Part shown: positions 8,712 to 59,195 of the stretch, piece by piece
How the letters are laid out: each line of letters begins with the position of its first letter
How positions within the stretch are numbered: position 1 is the stretch's first letter
From: Sipunculus nudus
Lineage: Eukaryota > Annelida > Sipuncula > Golfingiida > Sipunculidae
DNA length: 64,000 nucleotides
Assembly (NCBI GenBank): GCA_026874595.1
Contig: CM049311.1
Coordinates: forward strand, 45,015,676-45,079,675
Direction of reading: 5' to 3'
The notes under the pieces: generated by a model
The model's input: only the letters and a program-made list of their open reading frames with translations
The model's database searches: none
Told to the model about the DNA's origin: nothing
Made by a program: the position numbers and the translations under genes

Positions 8712-8721
8712 TACTGATGAT

Positions 8722-13395: not shown

Positions 13396-13420
13396 ACCAG
13401 CACTGTAATTGGCACAACGT

Positions 13421-19437: not shown

Positions 19438-19699
19438 CATGTTAGTACTATGATTGTTTTCACAGTATGTAAACACAAGTATTTACTTTGTTGCAATCTG
19501 AAATTTAAAAATAAAAGCTTGAAAATTAGGCTAGTTATTGATATTTTTCTTGAGGCTCTATTGTAGTCATTTGCTTTGTCCAGATGCAGGGTCCAACTCC
19601 AGGTCACTGGAAGTCAGCTATGCCAGGGTTTCTGATTTATTAAAGTCACTTAGGGAGATTCCCTGCTGTGGTTGGTGTACAGTTATTCTCATATCACCT

Positions 19700-20766
19700 C
19701 CCCCCCCCCCCCCCCCCCCCCCCCCGCAAACCCAACCCACCAAGTTTTATGCAGTAATTGTTATTGTTTTCACTGTTTCTCCTTAATTGTAATGCTGTTT
19801 CCACTCCAATATACAAAAACTTTCCTTGAAAAAGTAATTCAAGGTGTAATCCAGAAGATGCCATGTTGTGTTAATGTTGCATTTTTAAAGAAATCAATTT
19901 AATTTTAAATGATTGTAACAAATATAATTAAACCTATCAATATGCTTAAATTTTTAAAATATGAAGTAAATTATCAAGTATTCAAGTATTATATTTATAT
20001 ATTTATTGTTTTGCAAATTTATTTTTGTGGTAAAAATAAATAAACATTTGTATGCATGATGTGGTGTTGTCTGACAAGATTGAGATTAATGATGTAGCAA
20101 TTTAGAATTATGAATCAAGTTTTATATTCAGATATATATATGTTATATTGAAAATGTATAGAAATAAAAACTTATAATAAAAAATATATGTGATAAAAAA
20201 ATAAGGATCTAATACAAACATGTTTTTCCTGGAGATAAGGCTTTGTTTGCCCTGTATGTATATGTGTTGTTTATCCCACCATCTCCCCCCCCCCCCCCCC
20301 CCCCCCGCTGCCATTTATTCCTGTACACTGGAACATTAGTTTTTATTGCAAATATGTAAAATTTATTTAATTAAAAAATAATAGGATTAGAAAAAAATAA
20401 GATCTTATTGAAACATATTCTTGCCTTAAGAGAATGGAACATAAAGTGATCAACTCTATCCATCATCTCTCCGTTATTATTAAAAATATATATAAGCAAA
20501 TTATATATTCAGTTGTGTATTATTGCAGATGTTAAACTTTAAACAAATTTGATATAATAAATAAATTATGAAATAATTGAAACTTTACATATTATCAGCT
20601 TTGTTTGTCTACCAGTCTGTCTGTCCTTTTTTAAATATTAAGTAATAATGAATGAACTTTTTTATCCTGTAAGCATTGTTGAATTAAGTGAAAATCCTAT
20701 GTATATACACTATAATAATACAGATATGTTGTAACTCCCACCATTCCTACCCCCCCCCCCCCCCCC
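19700..20766. repeat. Three C homopolymers (19700-19725, 20285-20306, 20750-20766)
   Basis: Runs of 26, 22 and 17 C within 1.1 kb of one family A copy. They generate the poly-proline and poly-glycine ORFs seen here in both strands, which should not be read as proteins. Confidence 0.95.
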
Positions 20767-21266
20767 ACCACCACCAAGTCCTTTCATCTGTGGACTGGGG
20801 ATATTAGTTATATTTCAACTGTATACATTTCATAAAATAAAAAAAAAAAAACATATATTTAATAATACATATTATAAAAAAATAGATTCAATTGAACAAA
20901 TGTGTAAACTAAAGAAATGTCAACAGTTAATCAAAAAGCCAACTAATGGTTATGGTAATAGTACAGATCATTTGTTCACAAACTGCTCCCATGCTTCAGT
21001 TTCAACATTAGAAAACCCATGGTCAGATCAAAAAATTTTATTTGCAACAATTTCTTGCTCATCAATACAAACCAATCATGTCAACCAACCATGGCCTATG
21101 TTACCTCTTCTTCTCAGACTCTATCTCCATTTGTTATTATTTTAGATTTTTACCTTCAAAGTCAACTTCAGCTGAGCACTGTGACCCATGGGTCCCTTGT
21201 AACATAAATTTTCATTAGTTTACAAAAAAAGAAATAACAGAACTGCTTCATTTTTATCATAAACAG

Positions 21267-21383: not shown

Positions 21384-21447
21384 GTATTGCATTAGTTTTC
21401 CACTAAACTACCTTAAAGTATTAAGAGTATTAAACTGAAAAAAAAAA

Positions 21448-21561: not shown

Positions 21562-21615
21562 GTATTGCATTAGTTTTCCACTAAACTACCATAAAGTATT
21601 AAGAGTATTAAACTG

Positions 21616-35575: not shown

Positions 35576-36460
35576 TCAGTATGCCTCACCTCATTCGGGA
35601 CACCCTTGCTTAGCCTAAACTAGGACATTAACTTGGACAGATGCCAGTTGGACGCCAGTTGGACGGGTTCCTTTTAGAAATTAAGGAAAAACCTCAATTT
35701 TTTATTAAAAACCTATTTTTACACTTCAGGACTGCCTAATATCAAAACCACTCATCTGTTTTTCCTCATATTTACCTTAATTATTCCTCTATATAGTTCC
35801 TATGTACATGCCAGAAATTATGTCTGTATTATGTAAATTTAAAAAGTTATGGGCCCAAACATAATGCATTGTGTAAAAAATCAGGAAAGTTATTTGATCA
35901 CTTAACACAAAATATGTTAAAGCTATAAACCTTTTTTCCAGTAATATAACTTTAATTAATCAAAATTAAATTGTATACCCAAAATTGGATCAAAATCTTT
36001 TAAATTTTTTAAAATATTAACAAAAATAAAAAATTGGTACTTAAATTTTGCCCAACTTGGCATGTGTTTTTCCTGTGAGTACTGTGGATTTAATTTTCAC
36101 AGCATGTTTTTTCTTAGCATTTTGTCTGTAAACACCAAATATTTGAAACCAGTTGATCAAAAACTGTAGATTTTATTCCAGTTTTCAAGCACCATGTAAC
36201 ATATTGTTTACAAACTAGTGTCATGCAGTTTGCAAGTGCTCAGCTTCCCAGCTTCAGCTCTCAGTTCCTAAAATTTGGCATGCAATTTGATGTCTCAAAA
36301 ATCCCCTACCATGCCAAGAATTTGGTCACTAGGACTTAATACCTTCCAGATATTAATGAAAAGCTTCATTTTTCCATTAAAAACCCATTGTTACACTTCA
36401 AGACTGCCTAATATCAAAACCACTGATCTGACTTTAATCATATATAATATACATATTTTT

Positions 36461-37998
36461 ATGCCCCCGCCACAAAGTGGCAGGGGCATATAGTTTTACC
36501 CATGTCCGTCCTTCTGTCATTCCGTCATTCCGAAATCAAACAGTTGTACGGACTTTTTTTCCCAATGCCTGCAGATATTGGCCTGATTTTTGGTGTGTGG
36601 GCAGATATAGACCAGTTACAGATCGAGTTCGCGTTTCGTCCCAGTTGACCTACTTTTGACGGTTTTACGGCTCCTAAACTTAGAAAATTTCATGAAAATA
36701 GAAATTTTCATGACAAATACACATGTACTGACTTTTTTTCACAATACCTGCAGATATTGGCCTGATTTTTGGTGTGTTGGCAGATAATGACCAGTTACAG
36801 ATCGAGTTCGCGTTTTGTCCCAGTGGACCTACTTTTGACTGTTTTACGGCTCCTAAACTTAGAAAATTTCATGAAAAATAGAAATTTTCCTGACGAATAC
36901 ACATGTACGGGTTTTTTTTCGCAATGCCTGCAGATATTGGCCTGATTTTTGGTGTGTGGGCAGATAATGACCAGTTACAGATCGAGTTCGCGTTTCCTCC
37001 CGGTTGACTTACTTTTGACTGTTTTACGGCTCCTAAACTTAGAAAATTTCATGAAAAATAGAAATTTTCATGACAAATACACATGTACTGACTTTTTTTC
37101 GCAATGCCTGCAGATATTGGCCTGATTTTTGGTGTGTAGGCAGAAAATGACCAGTTACAGATCGAGTTCGCGTTTTGTCCCAGTTGACCTGCTTTTGACT
37201 GTTTTACGGCTCCTAAACTTAGAAAATTTAATGAAAAATAGAAATTTTCATGACAAATACACATGTACGGACTTTCTTTCGCAATGCCTGCAGATTGGCC
37301 TGATTTTTGGTGTGTGGCCAGATAATGACCAGTTACAGATAGAATTCACATTTTGTCCCAGTTGACCTACTTTTGACCGTTTGATGGTGCTCTAACATAG
37401 AAAATTTCATAAAAAAGTGCACATGTATGGACTTTTTTTTGCAGTGCCTGCAGATACAGGCCTGATTTTTGGTGTGTAGGCAGATAATGACCAGTTACAG
37501 ATCGAGTTCTTGTTTTGTCCCAGTTGACCTACTTTTGACCATTTGACTGCTCCTGAACAAAGAAAGTTTCATGAAAAATGGAAATTTTTATAACAAATGC
37601 ATATGTACTGACTTTTTTTCCTCAATGCCTGCAGATACCACCCTAATTTTTTTAATGTGTGGGCAGATAATGACAGTTACAGATGGAGTTCGTGTTTTGT
37701 CCAGGTTGACCTACTTTTGATTGTTTTACGGCTCCTAAACATAGAAAATTTCATGAAAGACAGAAATTTTTATGGAAAATGCACATGGACTTTTTTTCAC
37801 AATGCCTGCATATACTAGCATGATTTTTGGTGTGTTGCTTGATCATGACCCGTTACAGATCGAGTTTGCATTTTGCCCTTGTTGACCTACTTTTGACCTT
37901 ACGACACCTCCTGAACTTGAAAAAATTTTTCAAAATTTTACAAATGTTTCTTATTTGCCCCAGGCGGGGGCATTCGTGTCGTACCGACACATCTAGTT
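36461..37998 (+). repeat. Complete family F hairpin-ended element
   Basis: The 5' hairpin is ATGCCCCCGCCAC-AAA-GTGGCAGGGGCAT, followed by a GTCCGTCC/TCATTCCG stretch. The core is about eight ~180-bp units with CTGCAGATATTGGCCTGATT and CCAGTTACAGATCGAGTTCG words. At the 3' end come GCGGGGGCAT (inverse of the 5' end), a hairpin GTGTCG-TAC-CGACAC and ATCTAGTT. Paralogous copies (near 6600 and 39955) give the empty site ATTTTTCTATAC, confirming insertion in a T-run without target duplication. Confidence 0.88.
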
Positions 37999-38970
37999 CT
38001 ATACATTCTCTATGCACATGCCAGAAATGATGTCAGTATTGCGTAATTGTTTTAAGTTATGGGCCCAAACATAATGCTCTTTGAAAAAAATCAAGAAATA
38101 TATTTACTCCCTTAACAAGAGGATTGCTAAAGCTAGAGATTTTTTGTCAGGGATGTAACATTATTTAATCAAGATATAATTGAATACCCAAAATTAGTTC
38201 TGAATTTTTCAAATTTTATAAGGTATTAGTATAAATATAAAATTAGTACCTTAAATTTTGCCCAAATTTGACCATGGCATGTTTGTTACCTGTGAGCACT
38301 GTTGATATAATTTTCATATCATGCACACATGAAGATTTCAGCTTTTTAGTTTAAAAAGCTGAAAGAAATTGGCCAAAAATTGTAGCTTTTATTAATGTTT
38401 TTATGAGACCATGTCAGACCTTGGCTCTGTGTAGCACCTCTTGAGTCACCTGTATGTTGACCTTGTTGAACTTTCAGCAAATTATGCATGCTTGAGGCGA
38501 GGCATAAACTGGGGCGTCCAGGCAGCTTATTATATAATGGCCAGCCACAGTTGATCCAGGTGTCCAACCCAACTCATCTAGTAGTTTTAACCAACAACAT
38601 AACAATAAACAATAAATTGATAAATTTTTATTGGTTTTTAATAACAAATTAAAGAAAATTGAAAAGGAATTTGATAGTTGATAATAACAGGAAATTAACT
38701 TGCAGTTACCGATGATATAAGAATCTTGTATCGATGGATAGAATGTCACGTATTCCAAATAACACCATGCAGTCACCTATGGTATTTTTCAGTTCAATTT
38801 TAATGATAAAAAAGTAAATCATATTATTCATTACTAATCATTAGTGATCATATGAAGGAAATTAATGATAGACAAAGATGCAGTTGATAATATTATTATC
38901 TAGATTCCTACTGTGTCTATAGTTAGTACATTGATGTGAAATTAGTCCAAAATGAATATATTACATTTTT

Positions 38971-40794
38971 AGCTCAGCTGACTATAAGTCATCTGAGCTA
39001 TAGTCGTGGTCCCTTGTCCGTCCGTCTGTCGTGCCGTCCGTCCGTCTGTAGATGTGGCACGTTTTGAAACCGTAAGACCTATGATTCCAAAATTCGGCGT
39101 AATGTTAGATGTCCCCAAGATCTCCTACTAAGCCGAACAACTGGGTCTTTGCGACTTCGTTCCTTTGAGAAATTAAGGAAAAACCTCAATTTTTTATTAA
39201 AAACCTATTTTCACACTTCAGGACTGCCTAATATCAAAACCACTCATCTGTTTTTCCTCATATTTACCATAAATATTCCTCTATATAGTTCCTATGTATA
39301 TGCCAGAAATTATGTCTGTATTATATGATTTAAAAAAGTTATGGGCCCAAACAAAGTGCATTTTGTAAAAAATCAGGAAAGATATTTGATCACTTAACAC
39401 AAAACATGTTAAAGCTATGGACTTTTTTCCAGTAATATAACTTTAAATTGTATACCCAAAATTAGATCAAAATCTTTTAAATTTTTTTAAATTTAACAAA
39501 AATAAAAAATTGATACCTTAAATTTTGCCTAACTTTGACCATGGCACGTTTTTTTCCTGTAAGTACTGTGGATTTAATTTTCACAGCATGTTTTTGTTAG
39601 CATTTTGTGTGTAAACACCAAAAATTTGAAACCAGTTGATCAAAAAACTGTAGTTTGTAGATCAAACTCAAGTTTTCAAGCACCATGTAACATATTGTTT
39701 ACATCAAGCTAGTGTTATGCAGTTTGCAATAGCTCAGCTCCCCAGCTTCAGCTCTCAGTTCCTAAAATTTGGTATACAATTAGATGTCTCCAAAATCCCC
39801 TACCATACCAAGAATTTGGTCACCAGGACTTAATTCCTTTCTAGATATTAAAGAAAAACTTCATTTTTTCCATTAAAAACCCATTGTTACACTTCAAAAA
39901 TGCCTAATATCAAAACCACTGATCTGACTTTAATCATATATAATATACATATTTTTCTATACATTCTTTATGCACATGCCAGAAATGGTGTCAGTATTTT
40001 GTAATAGTTTTAAGTTATGAGCCCAAACATGATGCACTTTGTAAAAAATCAAGAAATATATTTACTCCCATAACAAGAGGATTGCTGAAGCTAGAGATTT
40101 TTTGTCAGGGATGTAACATTATTTAATCAAGATTCAATTGAATACCCAAAATTAGTTCTGAATTTTTCAAATGTTATAAGTTATTAGTATAAATATAAAA
40201 TTAGTACCTTAAATTTTGCCCAACTTTGACCATGGCATGTTTGTTTCCTGTGAGCACTGTTGATATAATTTTCATATCATGCACACATAAGGATTTCAAC
40301 TTTTTAGTTTAGAAAGCTGAAAGAAATTGGCCAAAAATTGTAGCTTTTATTAATGTTTTTATGAGACCAGTTGATCCAGGTGCCCAACCCAACTCATCTG
40401 GTAGTTGTTTTGACCAACAACTTGACAATAAACAATAAATTAATAAATTTTTATTGGTTTTTAAAAACAAATTAAAGAAAAATAGAAAAGGAATTTGTTA
40501 GTTTATAATAAAAGGAAATTAACTTGCAGTTGCTGATGATATAAGAATCTTGTATCAATGGATAGAATGTCACGTATTCCAAATAACACCATGCAGTCAC
40601 CTATGGTATTTTTCAGTTCAGTTTTAATGATTAACAAGTAAATCATATTATTCATTACTAATCATTAGGGATCATATGAAGGAAATTAATGATAGACAAA
40701 GATGCAGTTGATAATATTAATCTAGATTCCTACTGTGTCTAGTGTGTACATTGATGTGAAATTAGTCCAAAATGAATATATTACATTTATTTTT
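38971..40794 (+). repeat. Second-level family A copy, 5' part
   Basis: The 5' hairpin at 38971 and GTCC stretch are intact. The copy is interrupted at the same T-rich site (TTACATTTATTTTT) where it itself entered the outermost copy. It resumes at 43416-43479, is interrupted again, and its remainder is 50426-50502 and 58016-58618, ending CTTGTT at 58618. Confidence 0.82.
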
Positions 40795-43415
40795 AGCTCA
40801 GCTGACTATAAGTCATCTGAGCTATAGTCGTGGTCCATTGTCCGTCGTCCGTCCGTCCGTCCGTCCGTCCGTCCGTCCGTAGATGTGGCACGTTTTGAAA
40901 CCGTGAGACCTAGGAATCCAAAATTCAGCATAATGTTAGATGTCCCCAAGATCTCCTACCAAGCCGAAAACTGGGTCTTTGCAACTTCGTTCCTTTGAGA
41001 AATTAAGGAAAAACCTCAATTTTTTATTAAAAACCTATTTTCACACTTCAGGACTGCCTAATATCAAAACCACTCATCTGTTTTTCCTCATATTTACCAT
41101 AAATATTCCTCTATATAGTTCCTATGTACATGCCAGAAATTATTTCTGTATTATTTAATTTAAAAAAGTTATGGGCCCAAACATAATGCATTTTGTAAAA
41201 AATCAGGAAAGATATTTGATCACTTAACACAAAAAATGTTAAAGCTATCGACCTTTTTTCCAGTAATATAACTTTAATTAATCAAAATTAAATTGTATAC
41301 CCAAAATTAGATGAAAATCTTTTAAATTTTCTAAAATATTAATAAAAATAAAAAATTGGTACCTTAAATTTTGCCCAACTTTGACCATGGCACGTTTTTT
41401 TCCTGTAAGTACTGTGGATTTAATTTTCACAGCATGTTTTTGTTAGCATTTCAACTGTTAACACCAAAAATTTGAAACCAGTTTATAAAAAACTGTAGAT
41501 TTTAATAAGTTTTCAAGCACCATGTAACATATTGTTTACATCAAGCTAGTGTTATGCAGTTTGCAAGAGCTCAGCTCCCCAGCTTCAGCTCTTAGTTCCT
41601 TAAATTCGGCATACAGTTAGATGTCTCCAAAATCCCCTACCATGCCAAGAATTTGGTCACTAGGACTTAATACCTTCGAGATATTAATGAAAAACTTCAT
41701 TTTTCCATTAAAAACCCATTGTTACACTTCAAGATTGCCTAATATCAAAACCACTGATCTGACTTTAATCATAAATAATATACATATTTTTCATTCTCTA
41801 TGCACATGCCAGAATGATGTCAGTATTGCGTAATTGTTTTAAGTTATGGGCCCAAACATAATGCACTTTGTAAAAAATCAAGAAATATATTTACTCCCTT
41901 AACAAGGGCATTGCTGAAGCTAGAGATTTTTTTGTCAGGGATGTAACATTATTTAATCAAGATTCAATTGAATACCCAAAATTAGTTCTGAATTTTTCAA
42001 ATTTTATAAGTTATTAGTATAAATATAAAATTAGAACCTCAAATTTTGCCCAACTGTGACCATGGCACGTTTGTGTCCTGTGAGCACTGTTGATATAATT
42101 TTCATATCATGCACACATTAGGATTTCAGCTTTTTAGTTTAGAAAGCTGAAAGAAATTGGCCAAAAATTGTAGCTTTTATTAATGTTATTTATGAGACCC
42201 TGTCAGACTTCGGCTCTCTCCAGCCCCTCTTGAGTCACCTGTATGTTGACCTTGTTGACCTTTCATCAAATTATGCACGCTTGAGGCGAGGCATACAGGA
42301 ATCCAGGCAGCTTATGGCCAGCCACAGTTGATCCAGGTGTCCAACCCAACTCATCTAGTAGTTTTAACCAACAACATAACAAACAATAAATTAATAAATT
42401 TTTATTGGTTTTTAATAACAAATTAAAGAAAAATAGAAAAGGAATTTGTTAGTTTATAATAACAGGAAATTAACTTGCAGTTACTGATGATATAAGAATC
42501 TTGTATGGATGGGTAGAATGTCACGTATTCCAAATAACACCATGCAGTCACCTATGGCATTTTTCAGTTCAATTTTAATGCTAAAGAAGTAAATCATATT
42601 ATTCATTACTAATCATTAGGGATCATATGAAGGAAATTAATGATAGACAAAGATGCAGTTGATAATATTAATCTAGATTCCTACTGTGTCTAGTGTGTAC
42701 ATTGATGTGAAATTAGTCCAAAATGAATTTTTTACAGTTATTTTTTAATATAAATAAAAGCCATAAAACCAGGTACTTTTGATCATTATTTAAATGTGTG
42801 AATTTTGTATATTCTGGATTCTCAACATCATTGGTTGGTGAAACTGAATAAATACCAGACATGGTGCGAATAATTTGTAATTGTATTTAAATACGAATAT
42901 GATTATGTACTCCATTATAAAATTTCTTGCATAAAGAATAGGAATTCAGGTAAAAATGAAAGTATATGAATACTCGTGCAAATACTTTCAAAATGTATTC
43001 ATGAATGCATTCATGAATATATTCTTTAATATTATTTTAATAATCATATCAGTTATATTTCATTTTACAAAATCATATGATTCTCTTATTATTTTTAATA
43101 AAAATTTTATTTGGGACAATATTTGTAATTTTTTTTAATAAATAGTTAAACTCATATTATATGATCTGCTTATAAGTTATTTGGCCAAGTCAAAAACTGT
43201 GTGACAATAGTACTCCATTTGTTAATAAAATAAATGAAATCAATGCTCTTCCCTGTCTCCAAAGGAACTATCAAAATCATACATAAGCTAAACAACAACA
43301 ACTCATAATACAGCTTATATTTATTACCACACAAAACCAGCATGTACCTCATTTCTAAATAATATTTTTTTATCATATATAACAGCTGAGCGTCGTGACC
43401 CATAGGTCCCTTGTT
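40795..43415 (+). repeat. Third-level family A copy, complete
   Basis: Hairpin at 40795, (GTCC)n at about 40845-40880, and the 3' end CAGCTGAGCGTCGTGACCCA, then TAGGTCCCTTGTT at 43415. About 2.6 kb, collinear with 16814-19437. Small ORFs at 42956-43138 and 43170-43436 recur in several copies with stops and indels and are not genes. Confidence 0.85.
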
Positions 43416-44014
43416 TCTAATATAAATAAAAGCCATAAAACCAGGTACTTATGATCATTATTTAAATGTGTGAATTTTTAGCTCAGCTGACTATAAGTCA
43501 TCTGAGCTATGGTCATGGTCCATTGTCTGTCGTCCGTCCGTCCGTCTGTCCGTCCGTCCGTCCATAGATGTGGCACGTTTTGAAACCGTAAGACCTAGGA
43601 ATCCAAAATTCAGCATAATGTTAGATGTCCCCAAGATCTCCTACCAAGCCGAAAACTGGGTCTTTGCGACTTCGTACCTTTGAGAAATTATAGAAAAACC
43701 TCAATTTTTTATTAAAATCCTATTTTCACACTTCAGGACTGCCTAATATCAAAACCACTCATCTGTTTTTCCTCATATTTACCATAAATATTCCTCTATA
43801 TAGTTCCTATGTACATGCCAGAAATTAAGTCTGTAAAGTATAAATTCTTTAAGTTATGGGCCCAAACATAATGGACTTTGTAAAAAATCAGGAAAAATAA
43901 TAACTCACTTAAAATGAAAGATTTTGAAACTAGAGTATTTTCTCAAATATATAACTATATTTAATTAAGATTCAATTGTTTACCCAAAATAAGATCTGAA
44001 TTTTGTAAATTTTT

Positions 44015-47000
44015 AGCTCAGCTGACTGAAAATCATCTGAGCTATAAGGATCACCTTTTGTCCGTCGTCCGTCCGGCCGTCCGGGCGTCTGTCCGTTAAC
44101 AGGGCACAAATCGTAACCGCTTAAACTGGAATCTTCTTACTTGACATCCTGGGGGGTCTATGAAAAATCTCCTTGGAAACCAGAAATTAGGTCTCTGTTA
44201 CCCATATCCTTCGAGCTATGGGGCCCCAAAGTACCCCCCAGAAAAGTTCAAAATTTCATACAAAAACTTCAATATCTCATTAACTACTTGACTGATGGTC
44301 ATGATTTTTGGCATACATATTGATCATGAGAGGTTCCATCAGTTCCTGAAGACTGGTGGCGCCACCTGTATTTTTCGATTTTTTACGAATTTTTTTCTCT
44401 ATTTTTGAGACCTTTCAAAATGTAAACATCTGTTAACAAGGCACAAATCGTGAAGACTGGACCTAGAATCTTCATTCTTGACACACTGAGAGACCTATGG
44501 AAAGTCTCCATGGAAACCAGAAATTAGGTCTCTGTTACCCATATTCTTCAAGCTATGGAGCCCCAAAGTACCCCCAAGAAAAGTAAAAAATTTCATACAA
44601 AAACTTCAGTATCTTATTAACTACTTGAATGATGGTCATGATTTGTGGCATAACTATTGATCATGAGATGTGTCATCTGTTCCTGCAGACTGGTGGCGCC
44701 ACCTGTATCGTTCAATTTTTTACGATTTTTTCCTCTATTTTTGAGACCTTTAAGGATGCTGTCATCTGTTAGCATGGCACAAATAGTAACGACTGGACCT
44801 AGAATCTTCATTCTTGACACACAGGGAGACCCATGAAAAGTCTCCATGGAAATATGAAATTAGGTCTCTGTTACCCATATCCTTTAAGCTGTGGCACTCC
44901 AAAGTACAGCTCAGATTAATGGAAAATTTGATATAAAAGCTGAAGTATCTGAACAACGAATGCAGGGATCACCATAATTGTTTGCATGGATTTTGATCAT
45001 GGAGTGTGTCATCAGTTTCTGCAGCCTGGGTGCGCCACCTCTATTTTTTTTTTTTTTTTATTATATTTTACGAATTGTTTTCTCTTTTTTTTTTGAGACC
45101 TTTAAAAATGTGAACATCTGTTAGCATGGCACAAATCGTAACGACTGGACCTAGAATCTTCATTCTCAATACACTGAGAGACCTATGAAAAGTCTCCATG
45201 GAAACCAGAAATTAGGTCTCTGTTACCCATATCCTTCGAGCTATGGGGCTCCAAGTTACCCCCCAGAGTAGTCAAAAATTTCATACAAAAACTTCAATAT
45301 CTCAATAACTACATCACTGATGGTCATGATTTTTGGCATACATATTGATTATGAGATGTTCCATCAGTTCATGCAGACTGGTGGCGCCACCTATATTGTT
45401 TGATTTTTTTACGAATTTTTTTCTCTATTTTTGAGACCTTTCAAAATGTAAACATCTGTTAACAAGGCACAAATCGTAAAGACTGGACCTAGAATCTTCA
45501 TTCTTGACACACTGAGAGACCTATGAAAAGTCTCCATGGAAACCAGAAATTAGGTCTCTGTTACCCATATCCTTTAAGCTATGAGGCCCCAAAGTACCCC
45601 CCAGAGTAGTAAAAAATTTCATACAAAAACTTCAATATCTCAATAACTACATCACTGATGGTCATGATTTGTGGCATAACTATTGATCATGAGATGTGTC
45701 ATCTGTTCCTGCAGACTGGTGGCGCCACCTGTATCGTTCAATTTTTTACGATTTTTTCCTCTATTTTTGAGACCTTTAAGGATGCTGTCATCTGTTAGCA
45801 TGGCACAAATAGTAACAACTGGACCTAGAATCTTCATTCTTGACATACAGGAAGACCCATGAAAAGTCTCCATGGAAATATGAAATTAGGTCTCTGTTAC
45901 CCATATCCTTTAAGCTGTGGCACTCCAAAGTACAGCTCAGATTAATGGAAAATTTGATATAAAAGCTGAAGTATCTGAACAACGAATGCAGGGATCACCA
46001 TAATTGTTTGCATGGATTTTGATCATGGAGTGTGTCATCAGTTTCTGCAGCCTGGGTGCGCCACCTCTATTTTTTTTTTTTTATTATTTTTTACGAATTG
46101 TTTTCTCTTTTTTTTTGAGACCTTTAAAAATGTGAACATCTGTTAGCATGGCACAAATCGTAACGACTGGACCTAGAATCTTCATTCTCAATACACTGAG
46201 AGACCTATGAAAGGTCTCCATGGAAACCAGAAATTAGGTCTCTGGTACCCATATCCTTCGAGCTATGGGGCTCCAAAGTACCCCCCAGAGTAGTCAAAAA
46301 TTTCATACAAAAACTTCAATATCTCAATAACTACATCACTGATGGTCATGATTTTTGGCATACATATTGATTATGAGATGTTCCATCAGTTCATGCAGAC
46401 TGGTGGCGCCACCTATATTGTTTGATTTTTTTACGATTTCTTCCTCTATTTTTGAGACCTTTAAGGATGCTGTCATCTGTTAGCATGGCACAAATCGTTA
46501 AGACTGGACCTAGAATCTTCATTCTCAATACACTGAGAGACCTATGAAAAGTCTCCATGGAAACCAGAAATTAGGTCTCTGTTACCCATATCCTTCAAGC
46601 TATGGGGCCCCAAAGTACCCCCCAGAGTAGTCAAAAATTTCATACAAAAACTTTAATATCTTAATAACTACATCACTGATGGTCATGATTTGTGGCATAA
46701 CTATTGATCATGAGATGTTCCATCAGTTCCTGTAGACTGGTGGTGCCACCTATATTGTTTGATTTATTTACGATTTCTTCCTCTATTTTTGAGACCTTTA
46801 AGGATGCTGTCATCTGTTAGCATGGCACAAATAGTAACGACTGGACCTAGAATCTTCATTCTTGACACACAGGGAGACCCATGAAAATTCTCCATGGAAA
46901 CCTGAAATTAGGTCTCTGTTACCCATATTCTTTAGGCTGTATGGCTCCAAAATACCCCCCAGAATAATGGAAAATTTGATACAAAAAGTGCAGTATCTCA

Positions 47001-49112
47001 ATAACTACAACACTGATGGTCATGATTTTTGGCACACATATTGATCATGAGCTGTTCCATCAGTTTCTGCAGAGAGGGTGCGCCACCTCTATTTTTTTCA
47101 AATTTTTACGAATTTTTTCTCTTTCTTCGAGACCTTTGAAGATGTGGTTATCTATCAAGAGGGTACAAATTGCAACAACTGGACCTAAATACTTCATTCT
47201 TGTCATGCAAGGAGGCCCATGAAGAGTGCCTGTGGAAACTTGAAATTAGGTCTCTGTTACCCATATCCTTCAAGCTATAGGACTCTGAAGTATCCCTTAG
47301 AATAATGGACAATTTGATACAAAAGCTGAAGTATCTGAACAACTAATACGGAGATCATCATGATTCTTTTCATGGATATTGACCATTAAGTGTTTTTAGC
47401 TCAGCTGACTGTAAGTCATCTGAAGTATCCCTCAGAATAATGGACAATTTGATACAAAAGCTCAAGTATCTAAACAACTATTGCAGTGATCACCATGATT
47501 CTTTGCATGGATATTGATCATGGAATGTGTCATCAGTTTCTGCAGTATGGTGGCGCCACCTGTATTTTTTTTTTATTTTTACGAATTTTTTTCTCTTTTT
47601 TTGAGACCTCATAAGATGCGGTCATCTGTTAACATGGCACAAATCGTAACAACTGGACCTAGAATCTTCTCTCTTGACATGCTGAGAGGCCCATGAAAAG
47701 TCTCCTTAAAAACTTGAAATTAGGTCTCTGTTACCCATAACCTCTGAGCTATAGGGCTCCGAAGTACCCCCCAGAATAATGGAAAATTTGATACAAAAGC
47801 TCAAGTATCTGGACAATTATTATATTGATCACCATGATTCTTTGCATGGATATTGATCATGAAATGTTTCATCAGATTCTGCATCCTGGTGGCGCCACCT
47901 GTATTTTTTTCAATTTTTAGCTCAGCTGACTGAAAGTCATCTGAGCTTTAGGGATCACCTTTTGTCCGTTGTCCGTCCGGCCATCCAGGAATCTGTCTGT
48001 TAACAGGGCACAAATCGTAACCGCTAGACCGGGAATCTTCTTACTTGAAATCCTGGGAGGTCTATGGAAATTCTCCTTGTAAACCTGAAATTAGGTCACT
48101 AAGACCTATATTCTTTGAGCTATGGGGTTCTGAAGTACCCCCCAGAATAATGCAAATTTTAATACAAAAGCTCAAGTATCTGAACAACTAATGCATTAAT
48201 CACCATGATTCTTTACATGGATATTGATCATGGAGTGTTTCATCAATTCTGGAGATTGGTGGTGCCACCTATATTTTTTTTATTTTTATGATTTTTTTTC
48301 TCTACATTTGTGATCTTTAAACATTTGGTCATCTGTAAACAGGGCACAAATCATAATGACTGGACCTAGAATCTTCTGTCCTCACCTCCAGGGAAGCCCA
48401 TAAAAGGTCTACATGTAAACCCGAAATAAGGTCCCTGTTACCCATATTCTGTGAGCTATGGGGCTCTGAAGTACCCCCCAGAATAAAGATTTGGTCATAT
48501 ATTAACAGGGCACAAATCATAATGACTGGACCTAGAATCTTCTGTCCTCACTTCCAGGGAAGCCCATAAAAGGTCTACATGGAAACCCGAAATAAGGTCC
48601 CTGTTACCCATATCCTTCATGCTCTTGGGCTCCGAAGTACTCCCCAGAATAAAGATTTGGTCATCTGTTAACAGAGCACAAATTATAATGACTTGACCTA
48701 GAATCTCCTTTCTTGATATGCTGGGAGGCCCCTGAAAAGTCTCCTTGTGCACCTGAAATTACATCTCTGTTACCCATATCCTTCATCCTATGCGGCTTTG
48801 AAATACCCCCCAGAATAAACATTTGGATTTGTTAACAGGGCACAAATCATAATAACTGGACCTAGAATTTTATTTTTTGACATGCTGGGAGACCCCTGAA
48901 AAGTCATCTTGCAAACCTTGAAAATAGGTGTCTGTTACCCATATCCTTCATGCTACAGAGCTCCATAGTACCCCAATGAATATTGGATGATTTTATACAA
49001 AAGGTCAAGTATGGAAAAAGTATTTCATTCAAATTTGACATTCAGATGATAAAATTACTTTTGTCAATGTCTTCCTGGTCAGCTGAGCGTCATGACCCCT
49101 GGGTCACTTGTT
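44015..49112 (+). repeat. Family A subtype with ~340-bp tandem array
   Basis: 5' hairpin AGCTCAGCTGACTG/AAATCATCTGAGCT, then GTCCGTCGTCCGTCCGGCCG; 3' end CAGCTGAGCGTCATGACCCC, then TGGGTCACTTGTT at 49112. The core has about ten units of ~340 bp up to 47395, then shorter units. Further 5' hairpins sit inside at 47398 (cut short) and 47919 (complete), so related copies have recombined within the array. Each unit has CTGTTARCAWGGCACAAATC, GACTGGACCTAGAATCTTC, GGTCTCTGTTACCCATATCC and TGGTGGCGCCACCT. Unit ORFs of 60-100 residues on both strands are by-products. The second copy is 51606-56703. Confidence 0.88.
44401..46450 (+). repeat. Higher-order repeat: two blocks of three units, ~1026 bp
   Basis: Block 44401-45426 and block 45427-46450 align unit for unit (three ~340-bp units each) more closely than neighbouring units align with one another. 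Distinct unit variants keep their order, including the T-rich tract near 45050 and 46072. This shows local expansion by unequal exchange. Confidence 0.8.
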
Positions 49113-50502
49113 TAAGTTATTAGCATAAAAAAAATCAGTACCTTAAATTTTGCCCAACTTTGACCATGGCACGTTTTTTTCCTGTAAGCACCATTGATTT
49201 AATTTTCACAGCATGTAAACATAAATATTTAGTTTGTCTAAATCTGAAATTTGAAAATAAAAGCTTGAAAATTAAGCTAGTTATTGATTTTTTTTTCTGT
49301 AGTCACTTGCTTTGATTACAGATGCAGGGTCCCACTCCAGGTCACTGGAAGTCAGCTATGCCAGGGTTTCTGATTTGTTACAGTCACTGGGGGAGATCCC
49401 CTGCTGTGACAGGTGTACAGTTATTCTCATATCACCACCCCAATCACCCCCCCCCCCCCCCACAAACCCAACCCACCAAGTGTTATGCAGTAATTGTTAT
49501 TGTTTTCACTGTATCTCCTTAATTGTTATGCTGTTTCCACTCCGATATGCAAAAACTTTCCTTGAAAAAATAATTCAAGGTGTAATCCAGAAGATGAAAT
49601 GTTGTGTAATGTAGCATTTTTAAATAAATCAATTTTCTTTTAAATGATTTTAACAAATATAAATGAACCCATCAGTATGCTTAAATTATTATAAAATATG
49701 AAGCACATTATGGATAAATAAAGACACAATTAAAAATTGTGAAATCTAAATCAAGTATTATTTTTAGATATTTATTGTTTTGCAGATTTAAAAGATATAT
49801 TTTTGAGGTAAAAAATAAATAAACATTTATATGCATGATGTGGTGTTATCTGACAAGATTGAGATTTATGATGATGCAATTGAGAATTATGAATCAACTT
49901 TTATATTCAGATATATATGTTAAATTGGAAATGTATAGAAAATCAGGATTTAATACAAACATTTGTTCATTATTTTCCTGCCTCAGCAGAATTTGAGATC
50001 AGGCTTTGCTTGCCCTGTTTTATGTTGTTAATTAGCTATATTTCAGCTGTATACATTTCATAAAAAAATACATATATAATTAAAAATATATATTATGCAA
50101 AAAAATAGATTCAATTGAACAAATGTGTAAACTACTGAAATGTCAACAGTTAATCGAAAAACCAACTTATGATCATGGTAATAGTACAGATCATTTGTTC
50201 ACAAACTGCTCACATGCTTTAGTTTCAACATTAGGAAACACATTGTCAGGTCACAAAATATTTTTTGCAACAATTTCTTGTTCATCAATACAAACCAATC
50301 ATATAAACCAACCATGGCCTTTATTACCTCTTCCTCTCACACTTTATCTCCATTAGATATTATTTTAGATTTTTACCTTCAAGGTTAACGTCAGCTGAGC
50401 ACAGTGACCCATATAGGTCCCTTGTGTATATTCTGGATTCTCAACATCATTGTTTGGCTAAAACCGAATAAATACTAGACATGGTGCAAATGTTTTGCAA
50501 AT

Positions 50503-53500
50503 GTATTTAAATACGAATATGATTATGTACTCCATTATAAAATTTCTTGCATAAAGAATAGGAATTCAGGTAAAAATGAAAGTATATGAATACTCGTGCA
50601 AATACTTTCAAAATGTATTCATGAATGCATTCATGAATATATTCTTTAATATTATTTTAATAATCATATCAGTTATATTTCATTTTACAAAATCATATGA
50701 TTCTCTTATTATTTTTAATAAAAATTTTATTTGGGACAATATTTGTAATTTTTTTTAATAAATAGTTAAACTCATATTATATGTTCTGCTTATAAGTTAT
50801 TTGGCCAAGTCAAAATCTGTGTGACAATAGTACTCCATTTGTTAATAAAATAAATGAAATCAATGCTCTTCCCTGTCTCCAAAGGAACTATCAAAATCAT
50901 ACATAAGCTAAACAACAACAACTCATAATACAGCTTATATTTATTACCACACAAAACCAGCATGTACCTCATTTCTAAATAATATTTTTTTATCATATAT
51001 AACAGCTGAGCGTCGTGACCCATAGGTCCCTTGTTTCTAATATAAATAAAAGCCATAAAACCAGGTACTTATGATCATTATTTAAATGTGTGAATTTTTA
51101 GCTCAGCTGACTATAAGTCATCTGAGCTATGGTCATGGTCCATTGTCTGTCGTCCGTCCGTCCGTCTGTCCGTCCGTCCGTCCATAGATGTGGCACGTTT
51201 TGAAACCGTAAGACCTAGGAATCCAAAATTCAGCATAATGTTAGATGTCCCCAAGATCTCCTACCAAGCCGAAAACTGGGTCTTTGCGACTTCGTACCTT
51301 TGAGAAATTATAGAAAAACCTCAATTTTTTATTAAAATCCTATTTTCACACTTCAGGACTGCCTAATATCAAAACCACTCATCTGTTTTTCCTCATATTT
51401 ACCATAAATATTCCTCTATATAGTTCCTATGTACATGCCAGAAATTAAGTCTGTAAAGTATAAATTCTTTGTAAAAAATCAGGAAAAATAATAACTCACT
51501 TAAAATGAAAGATTTTGAAACTAGAGTATTTTCTCAAATATATAACTATATTTAATTAAGATTCAATTGTTTACCCAAAATTAGATCTGAATTTTGTAAA
51601 TTTTTAGCTCAGCTGACTGAAAATCATCTGAGCTATAAGGATCACCTTTTGTCCGTCGTCCGTCCGGCCGTCCGGGCGTCTGTCCGTTAACAGGGCACAA
51701 ATCGTAACCGCTTAAACTGGAATCTTCTTACTTGACATCCTGGGGGGTCTATGAAAAATCTCCTTGGAAACCAGAAATTAGGTCTCTGTTACCCATATCC
51801 TTCGAGCTATGGGGCCCCAAAGTACCCCCCAGAAAAGTTCAAAATTTCATACAAAAACTTCAATATCTCATTAACTACTTGACTGATGGTCATGATTTTT
51901 GGCATACATATTGATCATGAGAGGTTCCATCAGTTCCTGAAGACTGGTGGCGCCACCTGTATTTTTCGATTTTTTACGAATTTTTTTCTCTATTTTTGAG
52001 ACCTTTCAAAATGTAAACATCTGTTAACAAGGCACAAATCGTGAAGACTGGACCTAGAATCTTCATTCTTGACACACTGAGAGACCTATGGAAAGTCTCC
52101 ATGGAAACCAGAAATTAGGTCTCTGTTACCCATATTCTTCAAGCTATGGAGCCCCAAAGTACCCCCAAGAAAAGTAAAAAATTTCATACAAAAACTTCAG
52201 TATCTTATTAACTACTTGAATGATGGTCATGATTTGTGGCATAACTATTGATCATGAGATGTGTCATCTGTTCCTGCAGACTGGTGGCGCCACCTGTATC
52301 GTTCAATTTTTTACGATTTTTTCCTCTATTTTTGAGACCTTTAAGGATGCTGTCATCTGTTAGCATGGCACAAATAGTAACGACTGGACCTAGAATCTTC
52401 ATTCTTGACACACAGGGAGACCCATGAAAAGTCTCCATGGAAATATGAAATTAGGTCTCTGTTACCCATATCCTTTCAGCTGTGGCACTCCAAAGTACAG
52501 CTCAGATTAATGGAAAATTTGATATAAAAGCTGAAGTATCTGAACAACGAATGCAGGGATCACCATAATTGTTTGCATGGATTTTGATCATGGAGTGTGT
52601 CATCAGTTTCTGCAGCCTGGGTGCGCCACCTCTATTTTTTTTTTTTTTTATTATATTTTACGAATTGTTTTCTCTTTTTTTTTTGAGACCTTTAAAAATG
52701 TGAACATCTGTTAGCATGGCACAAATCGTAACGACTGGACCTAGAATCTTCATTCTCAATACACTGAGAGACCTATGAAAAGTCTCCATGGAAACCAGAA
52801 ATTAGGTCTCTGTTACCCATATCCTTCGAGCTATGGGGCTCCAAGTTACCCCCCAGAGTAGTCAAAAATTTCATACAAAAACTTCAATATCTCAATCACT
52901 ACATCACTGATGGTCATGATTTTTGGCATACATATTGATTATGAGATGTTCCATCAGTTCATGCAGACTGGTGGCGCCACCTATATTGTTTGATTTTTTT
53001 ACGAATTTTTTTCTCTATTTTTGAGACCTTTCAAAATGTAAACATCTGTTAACAAGGCACAAATCGTAAAGACTGGACCTAGAATCTTCATTCTTGACAC
53101 ACTGAGAGACCTATGAAAAGTCTCCATGGAAACCAGAAATTAGGTCTCTGTTACCCATATCCTTTTAAGCTATGAGGCCCCAAAGTACCCCCCAGAGTAG
53201 TAAAAAATTTCATACAAAAACTTCAATATCTCAATAACTACATCACTGATGGTCATGATTTGTGGCATAACTATTGATCATGAGATGTGTCATCTGTTCC
53301 TGCAGACTGGTGGCGCCACCTGTATCGTTCAATTTTTTACGATTTTTTCCTCTATTTTTGAGACCTTTAAGGATGCTGTCATCTGTTAGCATGGCACAAA
53401 TAGTAACAACTGGACCTAGAATCTTCATTCTTGACATACAGGAAGACCCATGAAAAGTCTCCATGGAAATATGAAATTAGGTCTCTGTTACCCATATCCT

Positions 53501-56500
53501 TTAAGCTGTGGCACTCCAAAGTACAGCTCAGATTAATGGAAAATTTGATATAAAAGCTGAAGTATCTGAACAACGAATGCAGGGATCACCATAATTGTTT
53601 GCATGGATTTTGATCATGGAGTGTGTCATCAGTTTCTGCAGCCTGGGTGCGCCACCTCTATTTTTTTTTTTTTATTATTTTTTACGAATTGTTTTCTCTT
53701 TTTTTTTGAGACCTTTAAAAATGTGAACATCTGTTAGCATGGCACAAATCGTAACGACTGGACCTAGAATCTTCATTCTCAATACACTGAGAGACCTATG
53801 AAAGGTCTCCATGGAAACCAGAAATTAGGTCTCTGGTACCCATATCCTTCGAGCTATGGGGCTCCAAAGTACCCCCCAGAGTAGTCAAAAATTTCATACA
53901 AAAACTTCAATATCTCAATAACTACATCACTGATGGTCATGATTTTTGGCATACATATTGATTATGAGATGTTCCATCAGTTCATGCAGACTGGTGGCGC
54001 CACCTATATTGTTTGATTTTTTTACGATTTCTTCCTCTATTTTTGAGACCTTTAAGGATGCTGTCATCTGTTAGCATGGCACAAATCGTAAAGACTGGAC
54101 CTAGAATCTTCATTCTCAATACACTGAGAGACCTATGAAAAGTCTCCATGGAAACCAGAAATTAGGTCTCTGTTACCCATATCCTTCAAGCTATGGGGCC
54201 CCAAAGTACCCCCCAGAGTAGTCAAAAATTTCATACAAAAACTTTAATATCTTAATAACTACATCACTGATGGTCATGATTTGTGGCATAACTATTGATC
54301 ATGAGATGTTCCATCAGTTCCTGTAGACTGGTGGTGCCACCTATATTGTTTGATTTATTTACGATTTCTTCCTCTATTTTTGAGACCTTTAAGGATGCTG
54401 TCATCTGTTAGCATGGCACAAATAGTAACGACTGGACCTAGAATCTTCATTCTTGACACACAGGGAGACCCATGAAAATTCTCCATGGAAACCTGAAATT
54501 AGGTCTCTGTTACCCATATTCTTTAGGCTGTATGGCTCCAAAATACCCCCCAGAATAATGGAAAATTTGATACAAAAAGTGCAGTATCTCAATAACTACA
54601 ACACTGATGGTCATGATTTTTGGCACACATATTGATCATGAGCTGTTCCATCAGTTTCTGCAGAGAGGGTGCGCCACCTCTATTTTTTTCAAATTTTTAC
54701 GAATTTTTTTCTCTTTCTTCGAGACCTTTGAAGATGTGGTTATCTATCAAGAGGGTACAAATTGCAACAACTGGACCTAAATACTTCATTCTTGTCATGC
54801 AAGGAGGCCCATGAAGAGTGCCTGTGGAAACTTGAAATTAGGTCTCTGTTACCCATATCCTTCAAGCTATAGGACTCTGAAGTATCCCTTAGAATAATGG
54901 ACAATTTGATACAAAAGCTGAAGTATCTGAACAACTAATACGGAGATCATCATGATTCTTTTCATGGATATTGACCATTAAGTGTTTTTAGCTCAGCTGA
55001 CTGTAAGTCATCTGAAGTATCCCTCAGAATAATGGACAATTTGATACAAAAGCTCAAGTATCTAAACAACTATTGCAGTGATCACCATGATCCTTTGCAT
55101 GGATATTGATCATGGAATGTGTCATCAGTTTCTGCAGTATGGTGGCGCCACCTGTATTTTTTTTTTATTTTTACGAATTTTTTTCTCTTTTTTTGAGACC
55201 TCATAAGATGCGGTCATCTGTTAACATGGCACAAATCGTAACAACTGGACCTAGAATCTTCTCTCTTGACATGCTGAGAGCCCATGAAAAGTCTCCTTAA
55301 AAACTTGAAATTAGGTCTCTGTTACCCATAACCTCTGAGCTATAGGGCTCCGAAGTACCCCCCAGAATAATGGAAAATTTGATACAAAAGCTCAAGTATC
55401 TGGACAATTATTATATTGATCACCATGATTCTTTGCATGGATATTGATCATGAAATGTTTCATCAGATTCTGCATCCTGGTGGCGCCACCTGTATTTTTT
55501 TCAATTTTTAGCTCAGCTGACTGAAAGTCATCTGAGCTTTAGGGATCACCTTTTGTCCGTTGTCCGTCCGGCCATCCAGGAATCTGTCTGTTAACAGGGC
55601 ACAAATCGTAACCGCTAGACTGGGAATCTTCTTACTTGAAATCCTGGGAGGTCTATGGAAATTCTCCTTGTAAACCTGAAATTAGGTCACTAAGACCTAT
55701 ATTCTTTGAGCTATGGGGTTCTGAAGTACCCCCCAGAATAATGCAAAATTTAATACAAAAGCTCAAGTATCTGAACAACTAATGCATTAATCACCATGAT
55801 TCTTTACATGGATATTGATCATGGAGTGTTTCATCAATTCTGGAGATTGGTGGTGCCACCTATATTTTTTTTATTTTTATGATTTTTTTTCTCTACTTTT
55901 GTGATCTTTAAACATTTGGTCATCTGTAAACAGGGCACAAATCATAATGACTGGACCTAGAATCTTCTGTCCTCACCTCCAGGGAAGCCCATAAAAGGTC
56001 TACATGTAAACCCGAAATAAGGTCCCTGTTACCCATATTCTGTGAGCTATGGGGCTCTGAAGTACCCCCCAGAATAAAGATTTGGTCATATATTAACAGG
56101 GCACAAATCATAATGACTGGACCTAGAATCTTCTGTCCTCACTTCCAGGGAAGCCCATAAAAGGTCTACATGGAAACCCGAAATAAGGTCCCTGTTACCC
56201 ATATCCTTCATGCTCTTGGGCTCCGAAGTACTCCCCAGAATAAAGATTTGGTCATCTGTTAACAGAGCACAAATTATAATGACTTGACCTAGAATCTCCT
56301 TTCTTGATATGCTGGGAGGCCCCTGAAAAGTCTCCTTGTGCACCTGAAATTATATCTCTGTTACCCATATCCTTCATCCTATGCGGCTTTGAAATACCCC
56401 CCAGAATAAACATTTGGATTTGTTAACAGGGCACAAATCATAATAACTGGACCTAGAATTTTATTTTTTGACATGCTGGGAGACCCCTGAAAAGTCATCT

Positions 56501-58092
56501 TGCAAACCTTGAAAATAGGTGTCTGTTACCCATATCCTTCATGCTACAGAGCTCCATAGTACCCCAATGAATATTGGATGATTTTATACAAAAGGTCAAG
56601 TATGGAAAAAGTATTTCATTCAAATTTGACATTCAGATGATAAAATTACTTTTGTCAATGTCTTCCTGGTCAGCTGAGCGTCATGACCCCTGGGTCACTT
56701 GTTTAAGTTATTAGCATAAAAAAAATCAGTACCTTAAATTTTGCCCAACTTTGACCATGGCACGTTTTTTTCCTGTAAGCACCATTGATTTAATTTTCAC
56801 AGCATGTAAACATAAATATTTAGTTTGTCTAAATCTGAAATTTGAAAATAAAAGCTTGAAAATTAAGCTAGTTATTGATTTTTTTTTCTGTAGTCACTTG
56901 CTTTGATTACAGATGCAGGGTCCCACTCCAGGTCACTGGAAGTCAGCTATGCCAGGGTTTCTGATTTGTTACAGTCACTGGGGGAGACCCCCTGCTGTGA
57001 CAGGTGTACAGTTATTCTCATATCACCACCCCAATCACCCCCCCCCCCCCCACAAACCCAACCCACCAAGTGTTATGCAGTAATTGTTATTGTTTTCACT
57101 GTATCTCCTTAATTGTTATGCTGTTTCCACTCCGATATGCAAAAACTTTCCTTGAAAAAATAATTCAAGGTGTAATCCAGAAGATGAAATGTTGTGTAAT
57201 GTAGCATTTTTAAATAAATCAATTTTCTTTTAAATGATTTTAACAAATATAAATGAACCCATCAGTATGCTTAAATTATTATAAAATATGAAGCACATTA
57301 TGGATAAATAAAGACACAATTAAAAATTGTGAAATCTAAATCAAGTATTATTTTTAGATATTTATTGTTTTGCAGATTTAAAAGATATATTTTTGAGGTA
57401 AAAAATAAATAAACATTTATATGCATGATGTGGTGTTATCTGACAAGATTGAGATTTATGATGATGCAATTGAGAATTATGAATCAACTTTTATATTCAG
57501 ATATATATGTTAAATTGGAAATGTATAGAAAATCAGGATTTAATACAAACATTTGTTCATTATTTTCCTGCCTCAGCAGAATTTGAGATCAGGCTTTGCT
57601 TGCCCTGTTTTATGTTGTTAATTAGCTATATTTCAGCTGTATACATTTCATAAAAAAATACATATATAATTAAAAATATATATTATGCAAAAAAATAGAT
57701 TCAATTGAACAAATGTGTAAACTACTGAAATGTCAACAGTTAATCGAAAAACCAACTTATGATCATGGTAATAGTACAGATCATTTGTTCACAAACTGCT
57801 CACATGCTTTAGTTTCAACATTAGGAAACACATTGTCAGGTCACAAAATATTTTTTGCAACAATTTCTTGTTCATCAATACAAACCAATCATATAAACCA
57901 ACCATGGCCTTTATTACCTCTTCCTCTTACACTTTATCTCCATTAGATATTATTTTAGATTTTTACCTTCAAGGTTAACGTCAGCTGAGCACAGTGACCC
58001 ATATAGGTCCCTTGTGTATATTCTGGATTCTCAACATCATTGTTTGGCTAAAACCGAATAAATACTAGACATGGTGCAAATGTTTTGCAAAT
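50503..58092 (+). repeat. Tandem segmental duplication, copy 2
   Basis: Second unit of the duplication. The junction word GTATTTAAATACGAATATGA at about 50503-50522 also occurs at 42882-42901 and 58093-58112. The sequence left of the junction matches the left side of the 58093 site and the sequence right of it matches the right side of the 42882 site, as expected for unequal crossing-over at this word. Confidence 0.92.
51100..58015 (+). repeat. Duplicate of the 43480-50425 element
   Basis: Copy 2 of the nested family A element, with its internal array element at 51606-56703 and 3' end CTTGT at 58015. It differs from copy 1 by the ~29-bp deletion near 51470 and scattered single-base changes. 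Confidence 0.9.
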
Positions 58093-59195
58093 GTATTTAA
58101 ATACGAATATGAATATGTACTGCATTAAAAATTTTATTGCATAAGAATGGGAACTCAGGTAAAAATGAAAGTATTTGAATACCAGTGAAGATACTTTCAA
58201 AATGAATTCATGAATGCATTCATGAATTTATTCTATAATATTATTTTAATAATCATTTCAGTTATATTTCATTTTAAAAAATCAAATGATTCTCTTATTA
58301 TTTTTAATAAAAATTATATTTGGGACAATATTTGTAATTTTTTTTAAATGAATTGTTAAACTCTTATATGTTCTGCTTATAAGTTATATGGCCAAGTCAA
58401 AATCTGTGTGACAATAGTACTCCATTTGTTAATAAAATAAATGAAATCAATCCTCTTTCCTGTCTCCAAAGGTACTATCAAAATCATACATAAGCTGAAT
58501 AACAACTTTTAATACAGCTTATATTTATTACCACACAAAACCAGCATGGGCCTCATTTCTAAATCATATTTTTTATCATATATAACAGCTGAGCGCCGTG
58601 ACCCATAGGTCCCTTGTTTTTTTAATATAAATAAAAGCCATAAAACCAGGTACTTATGATCATTATTTAAATGTGTGAATTTTGTATATTCTGGATTCTC
58701 AACATCATTGTTTGGTGAAAACTGAATAAATACCAGACATGGTGCGAATACTTTGCAATTGTATTTAAACACGAATATAAATATGTACTCCATTATAAAA
58801 TTTCTTTCGTAAGAATGGGAATTCAGGTAAAAATGAAAGTCATTTCAAGTCAGGTCAAAAATCATACTATTCTCTTATTATTTTTAATAAAAATTATATT
58901 TGGGACAATATTTGTAATTTTTTTAATAAAATGGTAAACTCTTATATTATATGTTCTGCTTATAAGTTATGTGGCCAAGTCAAAATCTATGTGACAATCG
59001 CACTCCATTTGTTGATAAAATAAATGAAATTAATCCTCTTTCCTGTCTCCAAAGGTACTATCAAAATCATACATAAGCTAAACAACAAAAAATCATAATA
59101 CAGCTTATTTTTATTACCACATAAAACCAGCATGTGCCTCATTTCTAAATCATATTTTTTTATCATATATAACAGCTGAGCGCCGTGACCCATAG
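58016..59195 (+). repeat. 3' remainders of second-level and outermost family A copies
   Basis: 58016-58618 closes the second-level copy (CAGCTGAGCGCCGTGACCCA, CTTGTT). 58619-59195 closes the outermost copy. The two tails are collinear with each other (AATATAAATAAAAGCCATAA, GTATATTCTGGATTCTCAAC, TTATATTTGGGACAATATTT), confirming that they are ends of separate copies. The second tail lacks about 60 bp around 58845. Confidence 0.8.

Follow-up and report, generated by a model that had tools for sequence, protein, structure and literature searches.

Neighboring rolling-circle elements of three HINE families mostly share their insertion strand on a Sipunculus nudus contig

We analyzed a 64,000-nucleotide stretch of the Sipunculus nudus genome (the window; GenBank assembly GCA_026874595.1, 1.43 Gb in 153 contigs; C6:45.016-45.080 Mb) and compared it with the rest of the assembly, concentrating on HINEs, which are non-autonomous Helentron-like rolling-circle elements. 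Three families, termed here HINE-1, HINE-2, and HINE-3, were followed. Judged by its repeats, the window seems bivalve-like. The strand on which these elements are inserted agrees among neighbors across the three families over tens of kilobases and, locally, over up to about 1 Mb on contig C1. An earlier sequence-only reading of the window had drawn attention to copies of one family, its family A and our HINE-1, which lie inside one another. Of the 14 HINE-1 5' termini counted by eye in the window (two or fewer mismatches, located behind a T-run, four duplicated termini excluded), 13 are on the plus strand.

The same behavior was observed on C1, where the first 100 exact matches listed for each family were used; these are dense only over the first 14 to 31 Mb of the contig. 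HINE-1 formed strand blocks along its matches, and HINE-2 and HINE-3, which had played no part in the discovery of these blocks, followed them. When the nearest element of another family lay within 20 kb, the two agreed in strand in 23/23 cases for HINE-2 and HINE-1, 40/42 for HINE-3 and HINE-1, and 16/16 for HINE-3 and HINE-2. Exclusion of the first 1.1 Mb of C1 left 10/10, 23/25, and 11/11, respectively, and thinning to a spacing of 100 kb left 24/26 for HINE-3 and HINE-1 and 13/13 for HINE-3 and HINE-2. All 64 listed elements in C1:96-1057 kb are on the minus strand, with the three families interleaved, and other unbroken strand runs among the listed matches extend over 309-1669 kb with 6 to 16 elements each. 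Taken together, the 261 listed elements of C1:0-14.3 Mb fall into 51 strand runs, compared to a minimum of 99 in 20000 shuffles. After thinning to a spacing of 50 kb, 101 elements in 35 runs were retained (p 0.0005).

As a control for orientation, we used an unrelated terminal inverted repeat (TIR) transposon of 1.4 kb. Its two window copies, 7285-8719 and 22361-23783, are 90% alike, and an internal 20-mer has 686 exact matches in the genome; a shorter pattern gained few extra copies. The copy at 7285-8719 adjoins a truncated HINE-1 copy (5620-7284). The strand of the TIR element agreed with that of the nearest HINE in 9/14 cases within 20 kb and 15/24 within 50 kb, and TIR copies agreed among themselves in 3/6 cases within 50 kb. 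The difference between 15/24 and the 92/101 found for HINEs of different families within 50 kb is significant (Fisher p 0.0013), although the control is small and some of its copies may themselves be carried by HINEs. A validation set of 180 HINE-1 termini from C1 beyond 9 Mb and from C2, none of which had been used in discovery, gave agreement for 10/11 pairs at 10-30 kb, 37/50 at 30-100 kb, and 23/34 at 100-200 kb.

Besides the small size of the TIR control, several results limit the strand domains or weigh against the chromosomal polarity proposed below. In the validation set, agreement fell to 16/40 at 200-300 kb and 19/66 at 500-750 kb and then rose to 83/129 at 1-1.5 Mb, a long-range swing that we cannot explain with certainty. 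Strand agreement fades by 50-100 kb except in a few large blocks: adjacent elements on C1:0-14.3 Mb agreed in 120/127 cases below 20 kb, 43/56 at 20-50 kb, 25/37 at 50-100 kb, and 16/34 beyond. For HINE-2 and HINE-1, pairs within 50 kb thinned to 100 kb gave 24/30, and those within 100 kb thinned to 300 kb gave 17/25 (p 0.054). Pairs of the same two families beyond 9 Mb agreed in 9/9 cases below 20 kb and then in 9/13, 11/23, and 12/39 in successive bins. C2 alone contributed 3/5 agreeing pairs within 50 kb and 6/8 within 100 kb. Neighbor pairs share elements and hence are not independent.

Strand domains could also be produced by local amplification, segmental duplication, or assembly artifacts, an explanation that we hold to be highly improbable. 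It draws on a 7.6-kb tandem duplication in the window itself and on likeness between some HINE-masked flanks among 30 C1 loci, the longest alignment being 794 bases at 92.6% identity (L024-L025). Apart from this pair and three physically overlapping pairs, however, no alignment of masked loci was longer than 302 bases, in a comparison in which only 13/30 loci had at least 1000 unmasked bases. Moreover, three unrelated families are interleaved within one domain, and random contig inversions should not be able to create coherence. On this limited unmasked sequence, segmental duplication as the cause of the C1 domain was not supported.

The assignment of family A to the HINEs is based on sequence features of its reference copy, E0: a 5' hairpin behind a T-run, a GTCC microsatellite, and a CCTTG end before T. 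The 5' end of HINE-1 carries a palindromic subterminal repeat that is predicted to form a 29-nt hairpin (z -4.42). Its inverted subterminal copy, about 23 bases from the 3' end, shares only 9 bases with it (GCTCAGCTG / CAGCTGAGC), and the predicted 3' stem-loop GACC-CATA-GGTC is weak (z only -0.41). Insertion into T-rich sequence or TT without target duplication is seen at the joins, and 7/7 further copies are followed by TT. No stop-to-stop frame of 120 amino acids or more was found inside E0 or E3, and there is one of 136 amino acids in copy B; judged by these frames, HINE-1 is without coding capacity. Two HINE-1 copies, L004 and L007, on C7 and C17, are flanked on both sides by the same repeat, as if both had entered another repeat at one and the same site.

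HINE-2 (36461..37996, plus strand) has 180-base central repeats, inverted subterminal repeats of 11 bases (ATGCCCCCGCC / GGCGGGGGCAT), and a 3' palindrome before CTAG, which is followed by T; fold scores are z -5.51 for its 5' hairpin and z -2.09 for the 3' palindrome. HINE-3, the third family of the orientation test, is represented by a 3' terminus at 15515..15537 (plus strand); other copies show the palindrome and a CCTTG end before T. T is the next base in 9/9 distinct copies and TT follows in 8/9 (fold z -1.38). The window copies of the three families are mutually dissimilar by BLAST, except for one 22-base match between HINE-1 and HINE-2. A canonical Helitron, with 5' TC and 3' CTRR termini according to the part of PMC13286980 on which we draw, was rejected as the class, given that HINE-1 spans AGCTC to CCTTG and HINE-2 starts with ATGCC, although the CTAG end of HINE-2 does fit CTRR. 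Genome-wide, the 38-nt HINE-1 5' terminus has about 34,500 matches with three or fewer mismatches (17115 + 17426), and exact matches number 2,653 for HINE-2 (1327 + 1326) and 5,385 for HINE-3 (2703 + 2682). The Rep domain (PF14214) has 143 matches in the genome, seven of them within stop-free frames of more than 2200 codons. These Helitron_like_N matches are spread over many contigs, and some groups among them score equally or nearly so, such as three on C7:48.53-48.59 Mb.

Family A resembles HINEs described elsewhere, which include Drosophila DINE-1 and the Cg_HINE of Crassostrea gigas. It shares with them, as described in the portions of PMC4067079 and PMC7492417 that we used, a palindromic 5' subterminal repeat, central repeats of microsatellite or satellite-like type, and T-rich or TT insertion without target duplication. 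HINEs also have an inverted copy of the subterminal repeat and a stem-loop near the 3' end, for which HINE-1 offers candidates: the subterminal inverted repeat given there is 12-15 bases long in mite and 13 in DINE-1, whereas that of HINE-1 is shorter and its 3' stem weaker. Strand domains of unrelated families, as seen here, are not mentioned for HINEs in those portions, nor did we find a report of domain-wise orientation of Helitrons or Helentrons in the search listings and passages of openly licensed PMC papers that we consulted.

The nesting of HINE-1 copies between 35663 and 59195 is real and four levels deep, as the sequence-only reading had proposed in claiming at least four. All pieces are on the plus strand, and their boundaries sit within T-runs and are therefore accurate to within a few bases. 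The outermost copy, E1 (35663..38970 and, after the inserts, its 3' tail at 58617..59195), contains E2; E2 contains E3 and E4; and E4 contains E5. The 5' part of E2 (38971..40794) sits in a T-run of E1 and is interrupted by E3 (40795..43413), a complete copy with 96% identity to 16804-19437. A short middle piece of E2 (43414..43479) separates E3 from E4, which is a B-type HINE-1 copy with its 5' part at 43480..44014 and its 3' part at 49111..50424, on either side of E5 (44015..49110). The original 3' tail of E2 is found at 58015..58616. Comparable nesting that had been noted at 16219-21200 corresponds to the related B-type copy B (16220..16806 and 19436..21199), interrupted by E0 (16814..19435), all on the plus strand and delimited by self-BLAST.

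When the inner copies were removed in silico, rejoined E1 and E2 could be aligned to E0 and E3, and the register was kept at the joins of E2 in E1, E3 in E2, and E4 in E2, with two additional bases at the last of these. Rejoined E4 aligned to copy B in a single BLAST stretch that crosses the E5 site (83%, 21 gap openings). Breaks were found in T-runs at the joins inspected, and one T-run of the element (reference 18757-18763) was entered twice, by E2 into E1 and by E3 into E2. Entry at T-runs, resumption in register, and the four-level depth were thus borne out. The earlier coordinates hold to within a few bases for the boundaries of E1 to E5, whereas a tandem duplication, 42803-50421/50422-58040, had been missed. 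Likewise, the order of a plain Russian doll stands, but some departures from it had been overlooked: E1 is truncated at the 5' end, by about 190 bases, and lacks its 3' terminal bases, and it also carries the unrelated HINE-2 copy, while E5 is composite. E5 has three 5' termini (44015, 47398, and 47919), one 3' terminus, and a 337-base tandem array; because E4 resumes directly behind its single 3' terminus, E5 seems to be a composite transposed in one piece and not a set of extra nesting levels. Fusarium composite Helitrons (FoHeli) likewise show self-insertion and several 5' termini with one 3' terminus, and movement of composites as a unit has been proposed for them in the part of PMC5148889 drawn on here. 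The elements described here differ from them in being non-coding and of HINE type, in nesting deeper, and in lying in strand domains. The nest can also be read as a relative clock, as had been suggested: the difference from a nine-copy majority (E0, E3, and seven others) decreases from 5.9% in E1 to 5.2% in E2 and 2.8% in E3, in the order that the nesting predicts, in a comparison of three nested copies only; E0 differs by 1.0%. Nesting as such is ordinary.

It had further been suggested that family A prefers its own sequence or T-runs as a target. Targeting of its own sequence would yield nests and, through the polarity of the host copy, equal orientation. We examined a random sample of 60 HINE-1 insertions out of 155 thinned sites on C1 beyond 9 Mb and on C2. 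HINE sequence lay directly upstream of 13/60 insertions and of 9/60 matched points 8 kb away (Fisher p 0.48). The control criterion was the looser one, with at least 100 of the last 200 bases covered, as insertions additionally required a match within 40 bases; under an equal criterion, one of the nine controls drops out (13/60 versus 8/60, p 0.34). In 80 kb of random sequence (20 stretches of 4 kb), HINEs cover 9.2% of the bases and 11.2% of the T/A runs of at least 4, shares that are lower bounds because the repeat library was derived from this window only. The 13/60 insertions represent a mild excess over this genome average of 11.2% (p 0.012), which can be explained by local clustering of the family and which is not significant against the local controls. 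Targeting of its own sequence by family A is not supported. The mild excess, the T-run that was hit twice, and the orientation common to host and insert in 11/13 nested insertions would fit such targeting, yet orientation is also common to unnested copies and to unrelated families, and we see very little chance that an element seeking its own sequence accounts for the data. Asymmetry of T-runs was rejected as the cause of the shared orientation of family A, since runs of at least 5 are balanced in E0 (17 T-runs and 17 A-runs) and T- and A-runs are also balanced in E3; E5 is richer in T (39 T-runs versus 17 A-runs of at least 5).

The overlooked duplication consists of a left unit (42803..50421) and a right unit (50422..58040), both on the plus strand and recognized by self-BLAST and segment-wise comparison. 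Within the right unit, E4 and E5 are present a second time, at about 51100-58014. Positions 42803-51098 and 50422-58683 are 98.8% identical over 8302 BLAST columns, and the core differs by 10 mismatches in 7000 aligned bases (28 segments of 250 bases each), five gaps of a single base, and one gap of 29 bases. At the junction, two nested 3' tails are combined into one hybrid tail. The middle tail is of the right, E2-like type up to 50501 and of the left, E3-like type from 50523, so that diagnostic differences place the crossover interval at 50502..50522; the exceptions are two sites with differences private to the left copy. The hybrid tail and the near-identical units imply that the right-hand E4/E5 stack (about 51100-58011) is a duplicate and not a second set of insertions. 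The middle tail is the product of unequal crossing-over between nested tails or of an assembly misjoin of like form. An assembly error, from haplotype copies or from a misjoin at the repeated tail, would be in keeping with the 10 differences per 7000 bases of the core and with a junction in a repeat able to mislead assembly. Private differences and the 29-base gap separate the units, however, and the hybrid tail shows a single clean switch, although a misjoin would look the same; we judge an assembly error to be unlikely.

Other features of the window include a 178-base tandem duplication at 21267-21620 with two exon copies. The 37-amino-acid translation of 21273-21383, from a plus-strand host gene, matches the mitochondrial ribosomal protein mS35 (MRPS35; E 1.5e-6), and a search of it against Pfam gave no match. 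In adjacent frames on the minus strand, 9493-13339 matches reverse transcriptase and, weakly, phage-integrase SAM-like sequences, and we take this element to be probably a DIRS-like retrotransposon. Related 280-base tandem arrays occupy 61369-62793 and 31120-31888 in opposite orientation. A plasmid search with one stretch, 12001-15900, gave no match, and a tRNA search of the window with the bacterial code found none.

To our knowledge, the field has not settled how Helitron-type transposons choose and enter their targets. The nearness of agreeing elements, its independence of family, the T/A-run balance in E0, and the mostly unlike flanks lead us to propose that a local polarity of the chromosome acts at insertion. 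We see about an even chance that such a polarity sets the HINE strand at insertion, with replication-fork direction as its most likely form. Our preference for fork direction comes from the extent of the largest uniform blocks, which reaches hundreds of kilobases, and from the like behavior of bacterial HUH transposons. Family A is presumably mobilized in trans by a Rep/helicase, and it enters at TT within T-runs without leaving a target duplication. According to our proposal, the target would be DNA that is single-stranded at the fork, for example, the template of the lagging strand. HINEs cover about 9% of the random sequence sampled (a lower bound), and insertions of copies into one another are about as frequent as expected from their local abundance; nested copies would be co-oriented through lying in one strand domain. 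A later exchange between two nested 3' tails left 7.6 kb duplicated in the assembly.

If HINEs entered the single strand that is displaced as genes are transcribed, or if selection removed one orientation from introns, the domains would be genes or gene clusters. This transcription-based account is the main rival, because the usual length of agreement, 50-100 kb, is also that of long genes; furthermore, the sole host exon identified, the mS35-like one, is on the plus strand, as are 13/14 HINE-1 5' termini of the window. The 64/64 elements over 960 kb and the unbroken runs of 309-1669 kb (6 to 16 elements) presumably exceed the lengths expected of genes, and near-pure orientation rarely results from selection, as far as we know. 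We regard transcription as rather improbable.

Likenesses to the proposed replication link exist in other systems. In the sections of PMC5371812 and PMC6006769 available to us, the orientation of IS200/IS605 elements (IS608 and ISDra2), which use HUH enzymes, and of Tn7 via TnsE tracks the direction of replication; for IS200/IS605 in bacteria, this is stated in PMC5371812. Those systems are bacterial, whereas the present one is eukaryotic and its link to replication direction is a proposal. Human LINEs and SINEs are eukaryotic elements with a replication-linked strand bias (PMC10030826, from the part consulted), but they insert by another mechanism, and here the agreement of close neighbors is nearly complete. 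Other evidence speaks against forks. Helraiser requires double-stranded donors or circles, according to the portion of PMC5876387 used. Strand skew in HINE orientation, which was too weak to serve as support for replication, amounted to +0.018 for TA (standard error 0.0085) and +0.017 for GC (standard error 0.011) over 123 stretches, and within C1:0.1-0.9 Mb, taken as a subset, the GC skew had the opposite sign. C1 and C2 also differ at their left ends, which are minus on C1 and plus on C2 (two elements there); this speaks against a simple rule by which forks would run toward the telomere.

The interpretation offered by the sequence-only reading was an ordinary one, and the strand domains are the part worth following. 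Strand domains common to unrelated families would show that the chromosome, and not the element, sets orientation, and would render a link to replication directly testable. It is possible, at somewhat less than even chances, that the HINE strand records the direction of germline forks and that rolling-circle transposition uses single-stranded DNA at the fork, as IS200/IS605 elements do in bacteria. If so, tens of thousands of non-coding elements would constitute a readable map, or fossil record, of germline fork direction.

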